NCBI RefSeq assembly: GCF_022478115.1
Contig: NZ_JAKGSC010000001.1
Location: 434,001 to 498,000, forward strand
Direction: 5' to 3'
From: Tenacibaculum aquimarinum
GTDB taxonomy: Bacteria; Bacteroidota; Bacteroidia; Flavobacteriales; Flavobacteriaceae
Length of the DNA: 64,000 nt
The notes under the pieces: generated by a model
The model's database searches: none
Told to the model about the DNA's origin: nothing
The model's input: the letters and a program-made list of their open reading frames with translations, nothing else
Made by a program: the position numbers and the translations under genes
In this document: positions 30,507-35,751 of the stretch, piece after piece
Numbering within the stretch: the first letter of the stretch is position 1
Layout: each line of letters starts with the position of its first letter

Positions 30507-30546
30507 AAAAACCGTAATCATTTTTAAAAATGATTACGGTTTTTTT
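30507..30546. terminator. Palindromic terminator beside the left attachment site
   Basis: AAAAACCGTAATCATTTTT is followed directly by its exact reverse complement. It ends in T on the plus side and, read on the minus strand, also ends in T. Before the element inserted, this would have been the terminator of tRNA-Leu(CAA), because it abuts the displaced 3'-end copy of that tRNA. Confidence 0.8.
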
Positions 30547-30562
30547 GTACTCGAGGTGGGAA
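30542..30562. other. Left attachment site (displaced tRNA-Leu 3' end)
   Basis: It carries TTTTT plus GTACTCGAGGTGGGAA, identical to the tRNA-Leu(CAA) 3' end at 35664-35684. The following bases, up to about 30573, still resemble the tRNA T-arm (GTGGG ... CCCAC), but the loop is changed (AACAGAAA instead of AATCGAA). Confidence 0.85.
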
Positions 30563-30700
30563 CAGAAACCCACTATCTTTAACACTTAACAACCCGCTTA
30601 AAACACTGGTAAATCATTTTAAAATCAATAAAAGCACCATTAATAAAGGAATTTGTTATTGTTTAATAAAATTGAAATAAATTTAATACAATGTAAAAAT

Positions 30701-30719
30701 GGTTGGCAAAGGGTTGGCA
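30701..30719 (+). promoter_or_regulatory. Left pair of putative integrase arm-binding repeats
   Basis: GGTTGGCA occurs at 30701-30708 and again at 30712-30719, an 11-bp period. The same heptamer pair with the same period and strand is at 35593-35610, near the other end of the element. It lies just before the integrase gene. Confidence 0.6.
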
Positions 30720-30765
30720 AGAACCTAAAAAGTTTGTATATTAGTATTGTTCAAAACACAAAACT

Positions 30766-32079
30766 ATGGCTTCAGTTAAATATCAACTTCTTACAGAAAA
30801 AGAAAACGCACCAATTTATTTAAGACTTTCAGTAAGTCGAAAAGTAAACACACGTACAAAAACTGGGTTACATATAAATGCAAAAGATTGGAGCACCTCG
30901 AGTTTTCCAAAAACAAATACAGAAACTAATAAAAATTTAAAATCTGAATTACAGAAATTAGAAATCTATATTTTGGATGAGGTTAATAATGCAAATAGTA
31001 TTGGCGAAAAGATAAACACCGCGTGGTTGAAATTTAAAATAGATGTACACTTTAAAAGAGCAACAGAAAACAAACAAAGTGACTTATTAATAGATGCAAT
31101 ACAAACAATAATAGATGAAGCACCAACAAGAAAAAACGCAAAGGGCGGGATTGGTTTGTCTAAGAGTAGAGTAAACTCTTATACTTCATTAAAAAACATA
31201 CTTACAGAATATCAAAAGAATAACACGTTTAAGGTTAAAGATGTAGATGTAAAATTTGCTAAGAATTTTTTAAAGTGGCTACTAAATTCTAAGAAGTACC
31301 AAAAAACAACAGCATTAAAAAAGATATCAGATTTAAAGACCGTTTGTAATGATGCTTCATTTTATGGAATTGAAACAAGTGTACAACTAAAAAAAATAGA
31401 TAGCACAAAAGCAAAAAAAGACAAAATACTGTATTTAACACCCCAAGAACTAAAAAAGATAGAAGACACACCGCTTTTAAACGAAGCGTATAAGAACGCA
31501 AGAAAATGGCTTTTATTAGGTTGCCAAGTTGGGCAACGTGGTGGCGATTTGTTAAACCTCAACGAAAGTAATTTTATAAACTTAAACGGACTGGATGTAA
31601 TACAGTTAAAGCAACAAAAAACAGATAAGACCGTAACAATACCAGTATTAGAAAAAACGCAAGAAATAATAAAAAGCGGGTTGCCTTATAAAATATCTAT
31701 TCAGAAATTCAATAAACACATTAAAGAGGTTTGCAAATTAGCAGAAATAAACGAACCGATAGAAGATAGCAAGATAACTGTAACTGTAAAAGGTAAGGGA
31801 AATAAAGAGAAAAGAAAAATTAACGGAACTTATGAGAAATGGGAATTAATGGCTTCACACGTTTGTAGACGTTCTTTTGCTTCTAACTTATACGGCACAC
31901 TTCCGACACCTCTAATAATGAGTATAACGGCTCACAGTTCAGAAAAAATGCTATTAAATTATATCGGTAAAGACAGTTTAGACTATGCGCAACAAATAGC
32001 AGATTTCTATACGTTACAAGCATTAAAAAATAAAAAAGAAACTCAATTAAAAGTTGTAAAAAACGCGTCGAGTCAGTAA
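30766..32079 (+). CDS. Tyrosine recombinase / integrase
   Basis: The 437-residue integrase has an N-terminal arm-binding domain of the Bacteroidota type (about 1-100), a SAM-like core-binding domain (about 105-205) and a catalytic domain (about 220-415). Active-site residues are all present: Arg258 (GQRGGDLL), Lys285, His365 and Arg368 (HVCRR), His390 and Tyr399 (LNYIG). It should recombine the tRNA-Leu attachment sites. It is first in the element, reading inward from the left attachment site, and looks intact. Confidence 0.93.
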   Translation: MASVKYQLLTEKENAPIYLRLSVSRKVNTRTKTGLHINAKDWSTSSFPKTNTETNKNLKSELQKLEIYILDEVNNANSIGEKINTAWLKFKIDVHFKRATENKQSDLLIDAIQTIIDEAPTRKNAKGGIGLSKSRVNSYTSLKNILTEYQKNNTFKVKDVDVKFAKNFLKWLLNSKKYQKTTALKKISDLKTVCNDASFYGIETSVQLKKIDSTKAKKDKILYLTPQELKKIEDTPLLNEAYKNARKWLLLGCQVGQRGGDLLNLNESNFINLNGLDVIQLKQQKTDKTVTIPVLEKTQEIIKSGLPYKISIQKFNKHIKEVCKLAEINEPIEDSKITVTVKGKGNKEKRKINGTYEKWELMASHVCRRSFASNLYGTLPTPLIMSITAHSSEKMLLNYIGKDSLDYAQQIADFYTLQALKNKKETQLKVVKNASSQ

Positions 32080-32349
32080 TATTTCAGATAATTTAATTTT
32101 AAAGTATAAATAATACCTTTAAAATTTATTTTTAGAGGGCTTATATTGCTTTTATTTGACTGTAAACCAATTACTTGTATTTTTATAATCCTTAGGAACA
32201 AATCGTTGCCGTTTCTAAAAACAGTGTTTAATTAGTTGATTTATGTTTTTTAAACAACTGATTTTTAGTTATTTATGTTTTTTGAAGTTATTGACAAGGG
32301 ACTTTTTTGTTAATAATTAGAAGTGTTTCGTTAATAACGATATACTTAT

Positions 32350-32490
32350 ACCTTATTAAACCTCATTATATTTACCAAAGTAAAAAAGAGCAAACTACCA
32401 ACTTGCGTCGAAAAGAATGCCCTTGTACTTAGGAAATACAAAGATACACCTTTTCGCGTAATTGACACCTAATAAGGTTGTGGTGGTTTG
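32350..32490. other. Structured intergenic region within the element (possible ncRNA or origin)
   Basis: The 440-bp gap 32080-32519 has no gene I can support. Its right half contains CGAAAAG (32409-32415) / CTTTTCG (32450-32456) enclosing TTGTA / TACAA; ACCTTATTA (32350-32358) / TAATAAGGT (32470-32478); and CAAACTACCA (32391-32400) against TGGTGGTTTG (32481-32490). The last two pairs cross each other, as in a pseudoknot or two alternative folds. A minus-strand TATCTTTG lies inside. The left half shows nothing. Confidence 0.5.
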
Positions 32491-32519
32491 TTAAGTATTA
32501 ATTTTAAAATATTTAACCA

Positions 32520-32798
32520 ATGAAGCAAGTTCAATTAGTGGGTATTACACCCGAAGAAAACAACAAGCCAATTTTTGAGTACATCGACAAAAAATTTGAT
32601 GACTTAAAAAAATTCTACCAACCAAAGAAACCTACGGAATACCTAACAAGGCAAGAAACCGCAGACCTTTTAAAAGTTGATTTGTCAACTATTCACAATT
32701 ACACTAAACGTAAAGTATTAAATGCTTGGGCAATTCAAGGTAGAGTTTATTATAAACGTTCTGAAGTTGAAGGTTCAATTATCAAACTTAATAAATAG
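32520..32798 (+). CDS. Helix-turn-helix protein, excisionase-like
   Basis: The 92-residue protein has a C-terminal winged helix-turn-helix of the MerR/excisionase type (LTRQETADLLKVDLSTIHNY, about 42-61, then GRVYYKRSEVEGSI). The N-terminal 40 residues are charged and helical. In integrative elements such proteins act as excision factors or control replication genes. It starts 4 bp before the next ORF begins, so the two are probably co-transcribed. Confidence 0.85.
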   Translation: MKQVQLVGITPEENNKPIFEYIDKKFDDLKKFYQPKKPTEYLTRQETADLLKVDLSTIHNYTKRKVLNAWAIQGRVYYKRSEVEGSIIKLNK

Positions 32799-32802
32799 AG
32801 TT

Positions 32803-33186
32803 ATGATGAAAGCACCACAACCAATTATTCACGTATTCAAGGAATTTAACGTGGGTAAATTTAAGGGAGTAAAACACTACGAACTTGAAGAAGTAAGCAA
32901 AGGAACTTCTTTGCTGTCTAATCAAATAAATTTAAGTATCAATAGAAATTTTGCCAAATCAAGTCCAGAGTATTGGCTTAAAATAAGAGAGGGCGAAAAA
33001 TGGAGTAATTGTATTACTGGTTTATTTAAAACCAAAGAAGAAAATATTTTTAAAGGAGATGTAGAAAGGAAAAAACATTTACTAATATTTAGACTTTCTT
33101 TTGACGCAAGAACACTAACAGTCTATTACTTTTTAGACTACCATACAAACGATTTAAGCGAGGTAATGCATTTGCTTAGAAGATAA
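32803..33186 (+). CDS. Hypothetical element protein (127 aa)
   Basis: It begins with two adjacent ATG codons 4 bp after the HTH gene; the open frame upstream overlaps that gene and is ignored. The protein is basic and mixed alpha/beta (for example SLLSNQINLSINRNFAKSS, HLLIFRLSFDARTLTVYYF) with no motif I can name. A terminator follows. Position between the HTH gene and the replication gene suggests a replication accessory or single-strand-binding role, but this is only inference. Confidence 0.6.
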   Translation: MMKAPQPIIHVFKEFNVGKFKGVKHYELEEVSKGTSLLSNQINLSINRNFAKSSPEYWLKIREGEKWSNCITGLFKTKEENIFKGDVERKKHLLIFRLSFDARTLTVYYFLDYHTNDLSEVMHLLRR

Positions 33187-33202
33187 CACAAACAATTCTT
33201 TT

Positions 33203-33225
33203 GAGGGTGTAAAAACCCTCTTTTT
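33203..33225 (+). terminator. Terminator between the accessory and replication genes
   Basis: GAGGGT (33203-33208) pairs with ACCCTC (33215-33220) around a 6-nt loop and is followed by five T. Confidence 0.75.
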
Positions 33226-33302
33226 CTCAATATTAATATTTAGGAGTTATAGCAACGTAACATCTGAATACAAACACTCTATTCTATATTTTGATAGACA
33301 AT

Positions 33303-34400
33303 ATGCCATTTAAAACATCTGATGAGGTTAGTATGCATAACGCGTATTATAACCCCTTATTAGAGTTTGTAAGTAAGACAGAGGTGGCAAATAAAACGAC
33401 TTCAGAATGTTACTACTATGTCAAAACAAAATACTTAAATCTATCATTTGTATTTATGTTTAATTACAAGAATGAGATGCAAGAATTAACCGTTAGGGGC
33501 TCAATTCATACATTTTACAACAATGGGCTTCATAATGCAAACAGATTAACATTTGAGCAATTTAAAACCTCTTTAGATAAATATACTTCAATCTTTGGTA
33601 TTGACTTGACAAAGTGCAAACTTTTACCATTAGAAAACGGTACAAACTTGTATTTAAACAACTTTAAAAATCATATATATAATGTTGATGAAATAATAGA
33701 AAACACTATTTGCGTTAAAAGAAATATGTTTAATCGTAATGCAGGAATAGATACTTCTTTAATTTCAGGAACATCTAAAAATGAAGTAAGAATTAAGTTT
33801 TATTCTAAATCGGCAGATTATCCAAAATATTGTACAGATACATTAAGAACAGAAGATAAACTATCTAAAATAAGAGGACTTAATAAAAAAGGGATTGTAT
33901 TTGTTTCAGATTTATATAATATCAAAAATCATATAATTTTACTTGAAAAACATTTAGAGAATGTGTCCAATATAGTTCTGTTTGATTACACAATTAAGAT
34001 GCCTAAAAAAAGTAAATACTTAAAGATAATTAACGAGTTAAAGAACCCTAATTATTGGAAAAAGTTAATTAAAAACTGTAAAAACTCAAAAGAGTATAAC
34101 ACGAAATACAACGAAAAAGTAAAACTATTAAATAGTTTGTCAAAAAGGTATGGAACAAATCTACTTCAAAACATTATACAAGAAACTGAAAAACAATCAC
34201 TTAAAGATTTGGGTGTTTGTAATTTTAGTACCTTTAAAATAAGTAAAACACTAAAGAATGCACTATTTGTAAAACCAAAGAATGCACCCTTATATATATG
34301 GTGCACTCCTTATCCATATAAAGTAGAAAGAATTGGTTTCATTCAATGTAATACAGATATTAAAAACACCTCTTTACAATCACTACCATATAATCATTAA
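33303..34400 (+). CDS. Putative replication initiator, phage gene II/X (Phage_CRI)-like
   Basis: The 365-residue basic protein has the pattern VRGSIHTFYNNGLHNANR ... LTFEQF near 65-90, then an EVRIKFYSK strand and later a predicted helical part. To my recognition this resembles the filamentous-phage gene II/X and plasmid replication proteins of Bacteroidota, which nick DNA to start rolling-circle replication. I cannot mark the catalytic residues with certainty. The ATG at 33303 is preferred to a TTG at 33291. A TATATTTTG at 33285-33293 may be its -7 element. Palindromic repeats follow its stop codon. Confidence 0.6.
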   Translation: MPFKTSDEVSMHNAYYNPLLEFVSKTEVANKTTSECYYYVKTKYLNLSFVFMFNYKNEMQELTVRGSIHTFYNNGLHNANRLTFEQFKTSLDKYTSIFGIDLTKCKLLPLENGTNLYLNNFKNHIYNVDEIIENTICVKRNMFNRNAGIDTSLISGTSKNEVRIKFYSKSADYPKYCTDTLRTEDKLSKIRGLNKKGIVFVSDLYNIKNHIILLEKHLENVSNIVLFDYTIKMPKKSKYLKIINELKNPNYWKKLIKNCKNSKEYNTKYNEKVKLLNSLSKRYGTNLLQNIIQETEKQSLKDLGVCNFSTFKISKTLKNALFVKPKNAPLYIWCTPYPYKVERIGFIQCNTDIKNTSLQSLPYNH

Positions 34401-34449
34401 TGATTTTTTTTTGATTAATCAATATTTGATTTCTTTTGATTAATCAATA
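34392..34449. repeat. Cluster of palindromes after the replication gene
   Basis: AATCATTAATGATT (34392-34405) overlaps the stop codon. TTTTGATTAATCAATA then occurs twice (34409-34424 and 34434-34449), 25 bp apart, each containing the palindrome TTGATTAATCAA. They could be operators for the HTH protein, replication iterons or part of an origin. Confidence 0.7.
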
Positions 34450-34506
34450 CTTTTTCAATTACAAAAATTCAGTTTACTGATTTATATCGATTATTTATTT
34501 AATACT

Positions 34507-34514
34507 TATATTTG
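34507..34514 (+). promoter_or_regulatory. -7 promoter element of the secreted DUF4468-like gene
   Basis: TATATTTG fits TAnnTTTG and lies 18 bp before the ATG at 34533. It shows that this gene has its own promoter within the element. Confidence 0.6.
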
Positions 34515-34532
34515 AAGTAAATAAAAAAAACT

Positions 34533-35105
34533 ATGAAAAAATATCTGTTAGTAATTGCATTATTATCACCGCTTGTATTTATGGCGCAAGGGAAAAGTTT
34601 TCAATTAAATAAGGAGACTCCAGAATTAATCAATCAATATGTTGTAATAGAAAGAGACTCTATGACAATAAGTGATGGTTATGACAAAATAATTGAATGG
34701 GTAAATATAACTTATAACACACCTAAAGAAGTTATAAAGTCACAGTTAAAAGATGAGTATATAAGGATTGAAGGAATTAATCAATCAATGACAAGTCAAA
34801 AAATATTAGGAAGAAAATTTTCATATAAAGGCAAATACTCTTTAACTTTTGAGTTTAAAGAAAATAAGATTAAGATGGAATTAACTAACCTACAAATTTA
34901 CTATGAAGGAACGAAATACACTACTGGTGGTTGGATGAATGATAACCCATCTCTTGCAAGTCAAACTAAAAAGAACGGCAAGACTAAAAAAGGAAAAGCA
35001 AGATTTAATCAAGGGATTATAGATAGTGTAAACGAATTAAGACTAAGTATTCAAGATTACATTGATAATAAGAATAAATCTATTATAAAAAAAAATGATT
35101 GGTAG
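34533..35105 (+). CDS. Secreted DUF4468-like protein (element cargo)
   Basis: The 190-residue protein has a Sec signal peptide (cleavage near MAQ|GK, residue 19). The body contains the DUF4468-type core: an N-terminal helix-strand (IIEWVNITYNTPKEVI), a central beta-sheet (YSLTFEFKENKIKMELTNLQ) and a C-terminal helix. DUF4468 domains have a TBP-like fold and are common in secreted Bacteroidota proteins, with unknown role. It is the only gene of the element that looks like cargo, has its own promoter, and is followed by a terminator. Confidence 0.7.
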   Translation: MKKYLLVIALLSPLVFMAQGKSFQLNKETPELINQYVVIERDSMTISDGYDKIIEWVNITYNTPKEVIKSQLKDEYIRIEGINQSMTSQKILGRKFSYKGKYSLTFEFKENKIKMELTNLQIYYEGTKYTTGGWMNDNPSLASQTKKNGKTKKGKARFNQGIIDSVNELRLSIQDYIDNKNKSIIKKNDW

Positions 35106-35206
35106 GGTAAAATAATTCACCAATCTAATGCTTACGTATAAAGGCTTTTTGACGGTCACACGCGCGTATTGTTTTGTTTTTTGCTAAAGTTATAATTCAG
35201 AAAATT

Positions 35207-35237
35207 AAAAAGCCACTCTTTTAAGAATGGCTTTTTT
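35207..35237 (+). terminator. Terminator after the DUF4468-like gene
   Basis: AAAAGCCA pairs with TGGCTTTT through a stem extended by TCTT/AAGA and is followed by T. The sequence between 35106 and 35354 otherwise shows no gene. Confidence 0.85.
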
Positions 35238-35354
35238 GCTATGAAAAAGAAAAAATGCTATGAGCACTTTTAATTTGTTTAAATATACAATAAAAAAAGG
35301 AGAAAACGAAAAACCTTACCTTTTGCACTTCGTTGTTGTCTGTTCGCGTGTGTG

Positions 35355-35600
35355 TTATATGTAGTGAAGTTCTCTAATAAATATAATAAGTTGTTCTTCA
35401 AATTGCTTAATTGTTTTAAGTTTATTAGAATAGCAAGTTTTTACTTTCCCTTTACTGATATAGAATTTAAAAAAAACAGAATTATATTCTAATTCTATTC
35501 TGTACCCTTGCATTATTGCAGTTCTATAACCTTGTGAGTTTCTTATTTCCGTTCTACTTGGCAACATAAAAAAGATGAGGTTTTTAAAAATTGTTGGCAT
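35355..35600 (-). CDS. Small hypothetical protein (81 aa) at the right end of the element
   Basis: The minus-strand ORF has protein-like composition in its second half (YRIELEYNSVFFKFYIS, then a Lys-rich stretch and FEEQLIIFIREL). Its ATG at 35600 sits inside one of the GTTGGCA repeats. An internal ATG 11 codons later is an alternative start and would give 70 residues. It is convergent with the DUF4468-like gene. Function unknown. Confidence 0.45.
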   Translation of the reverse strand: MPTIFKNLIFFMLPSRTEIRNSQGYRTAIMQGYRIELEYNSVFFKFYISKGKVKTCYSNKLKTIKQFEEQLIIFIRELHYI

Positions 35601-35610
35601 ATGGTTGGCA
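35593..35610 (+). promoter_or_regulatory. Right pair of putative integrase arm-binding repeats
   Basis: GTTGGCA at 35593-35599 and 35604-35610 repeats with an 11-bp period in the same strand sense as the pair at 30702-30719. It lies about 55 bp inside the right attachment site. Confidence 0.6.
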
Positions 35611-35663
35611 AATAAAAAGCCAATAAACTAAAAAACCATTGAAAATCAGATGATTAACAACGG

Positions 35664-35684
35664 TTTTTGTACTCGAGGTGGGAA
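35664..35684. other. Right attachment site within tRNA-Leu(CAA) 3' end
   Basis: This is the same 21-bp sequence as 30542-30562. It covers the last bases of tRNA-Leu(CAA) and the T-run behind it. Confidence 0.85.
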
Positions 35685-35751
35685 TCGAACCCACACTCTC
35701 GAAAGAACTGGATTTTGAATCCAGCGCGTCTACCAATTCCGCCACTCGAGC
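35670..35751 (-). tRNA. tRNA-Leu (anticodon CAA), integration target
   Basis: The class-II tRNA has acceptor arms GCTCGAG / CTCGAGT, anticodon arm CTGGA-TTCAAAA-TCCAG with anticodon CAA, a long variable arm and T-arm GTGGG-TTCGATT-CCCAC. CCA is not encoded. The element kept the tRNA intact by supplying its own copy of the 3' end. The original 3' end and terminator are now at 30.5 kb. Confidence 0.95.

Follow-up and report, generated by a model that had tools for sequence, protein, structure and literature searches.

An integrative element in tRNA-Leu(CAA) of Tenacibaculum aquimarinum, likely a reduced integrative mini-plasmid with a Rep_trans-like initiator

The combination of an integrase, an excisionase and a rolling-circle replication initiator at a tRNA gene is represented by the pSAM2-type actinomycete integrative and conjugative elements (AICEs), which also encode an FtsK-like transfer protein. 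Regarding proteins of the Rep_trans type, the leader of repC in plasmid pT181 is covered by an 87-nt antisense RNA, RNAI (PMC5703833), and MobT of Firmicutes is described as a Rep_trans relative (PMC11389934). NBU1, an integrative and mobilizable element (IME) of Bacteroidetes, inserts at the 3' end of a tRNA-Leu gene (PMC5704250). Here we describe a 5.1-kb segment in tRNA-Leu(CAA) of Tenacibaculum aquimarinum (assembly GCF_022478115.1, genome of 2.83 Mb), located at positions 30542-35684 of the 64,000-nucleotide stretch of DNA that was analysed (hereafter the window; contig NZ_JAKGSC010000001.1, positions 434,001 to 498,000). The segment is interpreted as an integrative element that is likely a reduced integrative mini-plasmid, predicted to excise and to replicate by rolling circle.

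Element ends and target tRNA

The element is bracketed by an exact 21-bp repeat, TTTTTGTACTCGAGGTGGGAA, at 30542-30562 (attL) and 35664-35684 (attR), both read on the plus strand; the 16-base tRNA part of the repeat has no further exact copy across the 64-kb window. attR forms the 3' end of an intact tRNA-Leu(CAA) on the minus strand (35669-35751; ARAGORN, Rfam), and attL is an orphan tRNA 3' fragment adjoined by a perfect palindrome of 19+19 nt (30507-30544). An earlier reading made without database searches (the sequence-only reading) had proposed a perfect duplication whose right copy completes the tRNA and whose left copy is left behind at the original terminator; the duplication, the intact tRNA and the orphan fragment are as it described, and the terminator origin of the palindrome is probable. 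Paired direct repeats lie near both ends (30694-30720, GGTTGGCAA, and 35585-35611, both on the plus strand, with 89% identity between the two pairs), and we infer from their resemblance to such sites that they are integrase arm-type sites. The G+C content of the element is 28.2%, compared with 31.3% for the remaining window.

The site was compared with a genus sample of 30 prs loci and 30 loci of the tRNA-Asn-Gly-Leu(TAA) cluster from 58 genomes, the own genome included. Besides the own locus there are 29 prs loci, and tRNA-Leu(CAA) adjoins prs in 27 of them. The palindrome at 30507-30544 is probably the original terminator of the tRNA, displaced to the left end, and an imperfect hairpin at approximately 35630-35668 is probably its replacement, supplied by the element, because a hairpin ending in a T-rich stretch comes after this tRNA in every one of the 27 other genus loci where ARAGORN called it (30 loci including the own, two without a call being left out; a permissive test run without a shuffled control, with weak stems in L060 and L067). 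The exact empty site that the sequence-only reading had expected was not found: none of the fetched genus stretches (about 1.5 kb per side), among which there is no close relative, has a facing tRNA-Leu(TAA)/tRNA-Leu(CAA) pair free of an insert. Different paired direct repeats directly behind tRNA-Leu(CAA) were seen by eye in L053, L057, L065, L071, L075, L077 and L079; since about seven other genus loci thus bear paired repeats of their own, the site may be an integration hot spot that is also used by other integrases.

The Rep protein and the other genes of the element

An integrative plasmid is favoured because the Rep protein keeps the main Rep_trans-type active-site residues and because some relatives have an antisense-like unit opposite rep, an arrangement known from pT181 plasmids. 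rep (33291-34400, plus strand) encodes a predicted Rep_trans-like initiator of 369 aa from TTG 33291 or 365 aa from ATG 33303. Within an alignment of 71 sequences, the window's included, residue 3 of the longer form is Asp in all 62 lettered rows (9 are gapped), and TTG 33291 is for this reason probably the start. The metal ligands of RepDE are D46, D142 and E214, and its tyrosine Y191 is accompanied by R189 and K193, together with R212 (PMC4797284). The window Rep, numbered from the TTG, has D3 (62/62 lettered rows), E115 (70/70), K169-x-Y171-x-K173 (each 70/70), R186 (69/70) and E188 (70/70). The order of the RepDE residues is retained, the spacing within R/K-x-Y-x-K and R-x-E is identical, and E115-x-G-x-N occupies the place of D142-x-A-x-D, the residues being paired by order and spacing and not by superposition. 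As judged from the alignment, rep appears to possess the three putative metal-binding carboxylates, the R/K-x-Y-x-K and the R-x-E of Rep_trans proteins, and the model of its catalytic domain has a predicted RepDE-like fold. The replication initiator put forward by the sequence-only reading is probable.

The PF02486 profile did not match rep; it matched none of 118 Bacteroidota genomes either, and it did match a B. subtilis control. The rep family lies outside PF02486, and we call it Rep_trans-like without counting it as a member. The family has an additional conserved motif, GSxHxxxNxGxHN, and no helix-turn-helix (HTH) domain was matched in rep. Searches of 50,697 phage records, IMG/VR and plasmid collections gave no match to rep. 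Compared by sequence with solved structures, the rep alignment gave a single chance row (E 1.7) and the integrase alignment no match; the structural search with rep gave a very weak match to an Inoviridae Rep.

The other open reading frames (ORFs) begin with a tyrosine integrase of 437 aa (30766-32079, plus strand; PF13102 1.4e-10, PF00589 5.9e-9, phrog_216 6.3e-17), in which the residues R, K, HxxR, H and Y are present as read by eye. The 440-base gap behind it gave short matches only when compared with the DNA of relatives, and its DNA-fold z of -2.3 is given no weight. The integrase is followed on the same strand by an excisionase-like HTH_17 protein of 92 aa (32520-32798; PF12728 1.7e-8, phrog_66 1.5e-6) and by u127 (32803-33186), a protein of 127 aa from a family of unknown function with 37 proteins, the window's own included. 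The model of u127 is a predicted beta barrel with a C-terminal helix (predicted local distance difference test, 90.7), and it matched no PDB structure above noise. Behind rep, a DUF4468 protein of 190 aa with a signal peptide read by eye (34533-35105, plus strand; PF14730 6.3e-5, phrog_4002 2.2e-7) represents the cargo. An ORF of 81 aa on the minus strand (35355-35600), taken from the ORF list and without a family match, is perhaps no gene. None of the five main ORFs is interrupted. The integrase, the HTH protein and, as a DUF4468 protein, the one behind rep that the sequence-only reading had named are confirmed by these matches, and its statement that capsid, relaxase, Zot and secretion genes are absent agrees with the scan of the six element ORFs, in which none of these families and no terminase was matched; nor did the six ORFs match packaging, capsid-redirecting or FtsK-like transfer families.

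Related elements and the rep leader

rep is present in 27 of 397 sampled Flavobacteriaceae genomes (own included), and 5 of the 30 rep places in this sample are decayed. The GTDB collection contributed 18 rep loci, which span Flavobacterium, Chryseobacterium, Dyadobacter, Labilibaculum and Saprospiraceae; with 20 others they make up 38 long rep loci, or 37 distinct ones, as L049 and L115 are the same stretch. An integrase lies upstream of rep in 33 of the 38 (partial only in L040 and L045, at a contig end), an HTH protein of the window's cluster is present in 34, and u127 in 10. The gene order that the sequence-only reading had proposed to look for at other tRNA sites is indeed found there: in 13 of the 37 distinct loci, a tRNA 3' end behind rep and DNA before int have an exact repeat of 15-25 bp in common (repeats were taken as the longest exact match of at least 11 bases, without a shuffled control). 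The targets of these relatives are Leu(TAA), Leu(TAG), Cys, Asp, Asn, Arg(TCG) and Ala(GGC). L035 has a tRNA behind rep yet no att repeat, and the remaining loci are without a tRNA behind rep or without an upstream integrase. The repeat-bounded relatives range from 4.8 to 12.2 kb and share no common size. The window element, with its 5.1 kb, belongs to the smallest, although L048 is smaller still. The genes int, HTH and rep, sometimes with u127, provide a recognisable core for tRNA-seated islands. Among 120 of 155 rep relatives, the source names given are all hypothetical or uncharacterized except two (FecR-domain and Skp-chaperone labels). A literature search that left out most subscription journals found no paper on the family; the element of PMC12324425 is a different one.

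Regarding cargo, 20 proteins were scanned from nine loci chosen for large ORFs behind rep, so that the counts are not a rate. Strong defence matches were obtained in seven of the nine loci (none in L112 and L118), namely type IIG enzymes in L037 and L041, type III restriction and AbiD in L038, PDC-S37/Hhe in L042, DndD/PbeC and DndH-like proteins in L117, a type III enzyme in L128 and a type I nuclease-like protein in L129. L117 is the one defence locus with both ends fixed by att repeats; in the others the genes are assigned by position, and upstream of rep L128 lacks an integrase. The presence of restriction and other defence genes next to rep points to one path by which defence systems may spread.

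Several loci show further arrangements. In Dyadobacter alkalitolerans (L051:9824-12343) one reading frame joins a rep homologue to a tyrosine integrase (839 aa; PF00589 6.8e-12, PF13102 1e-11); this locus also has a separate upstream integrase, and the fused one was not matched by the profile of upstream integrases. The layout of L128 and L130 is an alternative one, with an integrase far behind rep on the opposite strand. Ten genes were scanned from the slot between int and HTH, of which eight gave no match, one is a Fic protein (L035) and one, in Lutibacter litoralis (L049:8474-9019), belongs to the RteC family (PF09357 6.5e-14), whose members are regulators known from CTnDOT. DUF4468-like proteins were found directly in L044 (12451-13059), through similarity to L044 in L112 (11644-12288 as oriented), and in L131, where the gene is on the other strand at a distance of several kb from rep. 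In L121 (genome G283) four in-frame stops interrupt a rep place, and next to it the opposite strand carries a row of some twelve ORFs of 82-174 aa.

The leader of rep in some relatives contains, on the minus strand, a -7 box TAnnTTTG/A, a hairpin H2, CATTTGAAC or a variant of it, a hairpin H1 and a T-tail. The flavobacterial -7 consensus is given as TAnnTTTG (PMC9723704). Box, core and T-tail occur together in 12 of 47 distinct rep leaders, a count that is not blind, as 15 of the 47 were picked by eye, 14 were analysed after L047 was dropped, and the patterns admit the variants seen. A stricter descriptor found 9 places (8 distinct) in 723 kb, all of them rep leaders, whereas a single block-shuffled control gave 2. 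Of six sequences folded, four had z-scores of -3.1 to -3.6; the window scored -1.3, and one that had been cut off ahead of the terminator came out at about 0. MAFFT alignments of the unit did not hold the hairpins in register. Hand-picked H1 arms from 11 sequences form 7 distinct stems, and arms swapped between different stems were 67% paired, the own arms being paired by choice. The unit, a predicted antisense RNA, resembles RNAI of pT181 in position and form; alternatively, H2 may be a nick site. In many of the other leaders little or no gap separates rep from the preceding gene. The leaders of the window and of L043 are without the full set of box, core and tail. In the window leader (33203-33284), the leader comparison shows both hairpins, H1 (33203-33220, GAGGGTGTAAAAACCCTC) and H2 (33246-33261, GTTATAGCAACGTAAC), with the minus-strand promoter box and T-tail absent; the near relatives L034 and L005 have both.

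Nature of the element and comparison with known systems

The sequence-only reading had left the choice between an integrative plasmid and a phage satellite. The former gains from the Rep active-site residues and from the antisense-like unit of relatives, and little was found in favour of the latter. As a mini-plasmid, the element would be excised as a circle by the integrase and the HTH protein; the Rep_trans-like protein would nick the circle and start rolling-circle synthesis, and the antisense RNA, where the unit is kept, would hold down rep expression in the manner of pT181. On reintegration at a tRNA-Leu, gene and terminator would be restored. A helper would be required for spread between cells, as the element contains no recognised transfer or capsid gene. 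One observation weighs against the Rep_trans-like site. R140, reported as strictly conserved in the Rep_trans motif (PMC4797284), is without a counterpart in rep, its place in the alignment being taken by N in 30 and by P in 27 of the 71 sequences, with R outside the eight commonest letters; this slightly lowers our confidence in the mini-plasmid reading. Since promoter box and T-tail are absent in the window, this copy may be under poor control or just resident.

The alternative that survives best is an IME whose Rep-like protein acts mainly as a relaxase, the strand being moved by a resident conjugative element, as for MobT in Firmicutes; we consider it possible, although it is not the expected outcome. 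An integrase, an excisionase-like gene and att repeats at the integration site, as in IMEs, are present and no type IV secretion gene was recognised; the RteC-family gene of L049 also points this way. However, TraG of Bacteroidetes conjugation systems occurs in 9 of 27 genomes with rep and in 101 of 370 without it (Fisher p 0.51), so that co-occurrence does not indicate a conjugative helper, the host genome has neither TraG nor a PF03432 relaxase, and no oriT was recognised in the element, in which no systematic oriT search was made. Slightly less likely again, but possible, is an immobile relic, in which genes persist after movement or replication was lost. The absent promoter box and T-tail, the decay of 5 of the 30 rep places and the few genes beyond the core, with some genes of relatives missing, would fit a relic. 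Against it, the five main ORFs are intact, Int and Rep retain their putative catalytic residues, and attL and attR agree in all 21 bp. It is improbable that the element is a satellite which a helper phage packages: the compact arrangement, at a tRNA, of genes for an integrase, an excisionase-like protein and replication, the match of the DUF4468 cargo to phrog_4002 (a phage protein family of unknown function) and the fact that few genes suffice for satellites are set against the lack of packaging, capsid and terminase matches among the six ORFs, a rep that is unmatched in the phage records and IMG/VR, and relatives without a common size. A filamentous phage (inovirus) remnant is very improbable. 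Inoviruses do include Rep_trans-type initiators and the structural search very weakly matched an Inoviridae Rep, but no Zot or coat family was matched among the six ORFs of the window, to which this evidence is confined.

Beyond the mini-plasmid reading of the window copy, we tentatively propose, as a wider and doubtful hypothesis, an undescribed family of integrative mini-plasmids across the phylum, in which a Rep_trans-like initiator unknown to Pfam is replicator and relaxase, a leader antisense RNA restrains rep, the elements commonly carry anti-phage defence in the slot behind rep, and the window copy is among the smallest and deregulated. With this rep, rolling-circle initiators of the pT181 type would extend to Bacteroidota, where PF02486 finds none in the 118 genomes, and the family would offer a predicted antisense control unit and a compact replicon.

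Compared with known systems, the window element differs from the pSAM2-type AICEs in that no FtsK-like transfer protein was matched in its six ORFs. NBU1, NBU2 and Tn4555 are likewise integrase-borne elements of Bacteroidota, but they have MobP relaxases, whereas no PF03432 relaxase is found in the window element or its genome. The archaeal Rep-Arvir initiators (PMC13107129, 2026) are, as described there, also a diverged Rep_trans-like family in integrative elements, and their site combines three acidic residues with a tyrosine; they belong to archaeal viruses and plasmids, and 'Bacteroid' is absent from the main text of that paper. The MobT-carrying integrative and conjugative elements and IMEs of Firmicutes (Tn916, ICEBs1, streptococcal IMEs) share the combination of an integrase and a Rep_trans-type protein, which serves transfer and, in Tn916 and ICEBs1, also the upkeep of the excised form (PMC5704250), whereas the window rep has no HTH match, the host is of another phylum, and neither transfer genes nor an oriT were recognised. 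From the pT181-family plasmids (RepC/RepD/RepDE) the element differs by its integration in a tRNA gene with an integrase and an excisionase-like gene, and by a rep that is too distant for PF02486, lacks the R140 counterpart and carries the extra GSxHxxxNxGxHN motif. What it shares with them is the predicted Rep fold and the order and spacing of metal ligands, tyrosine and basic neighbours, to which some of its relatives add an antisense-RNA-like unit of about 70-90 nt opposite the rep leader.

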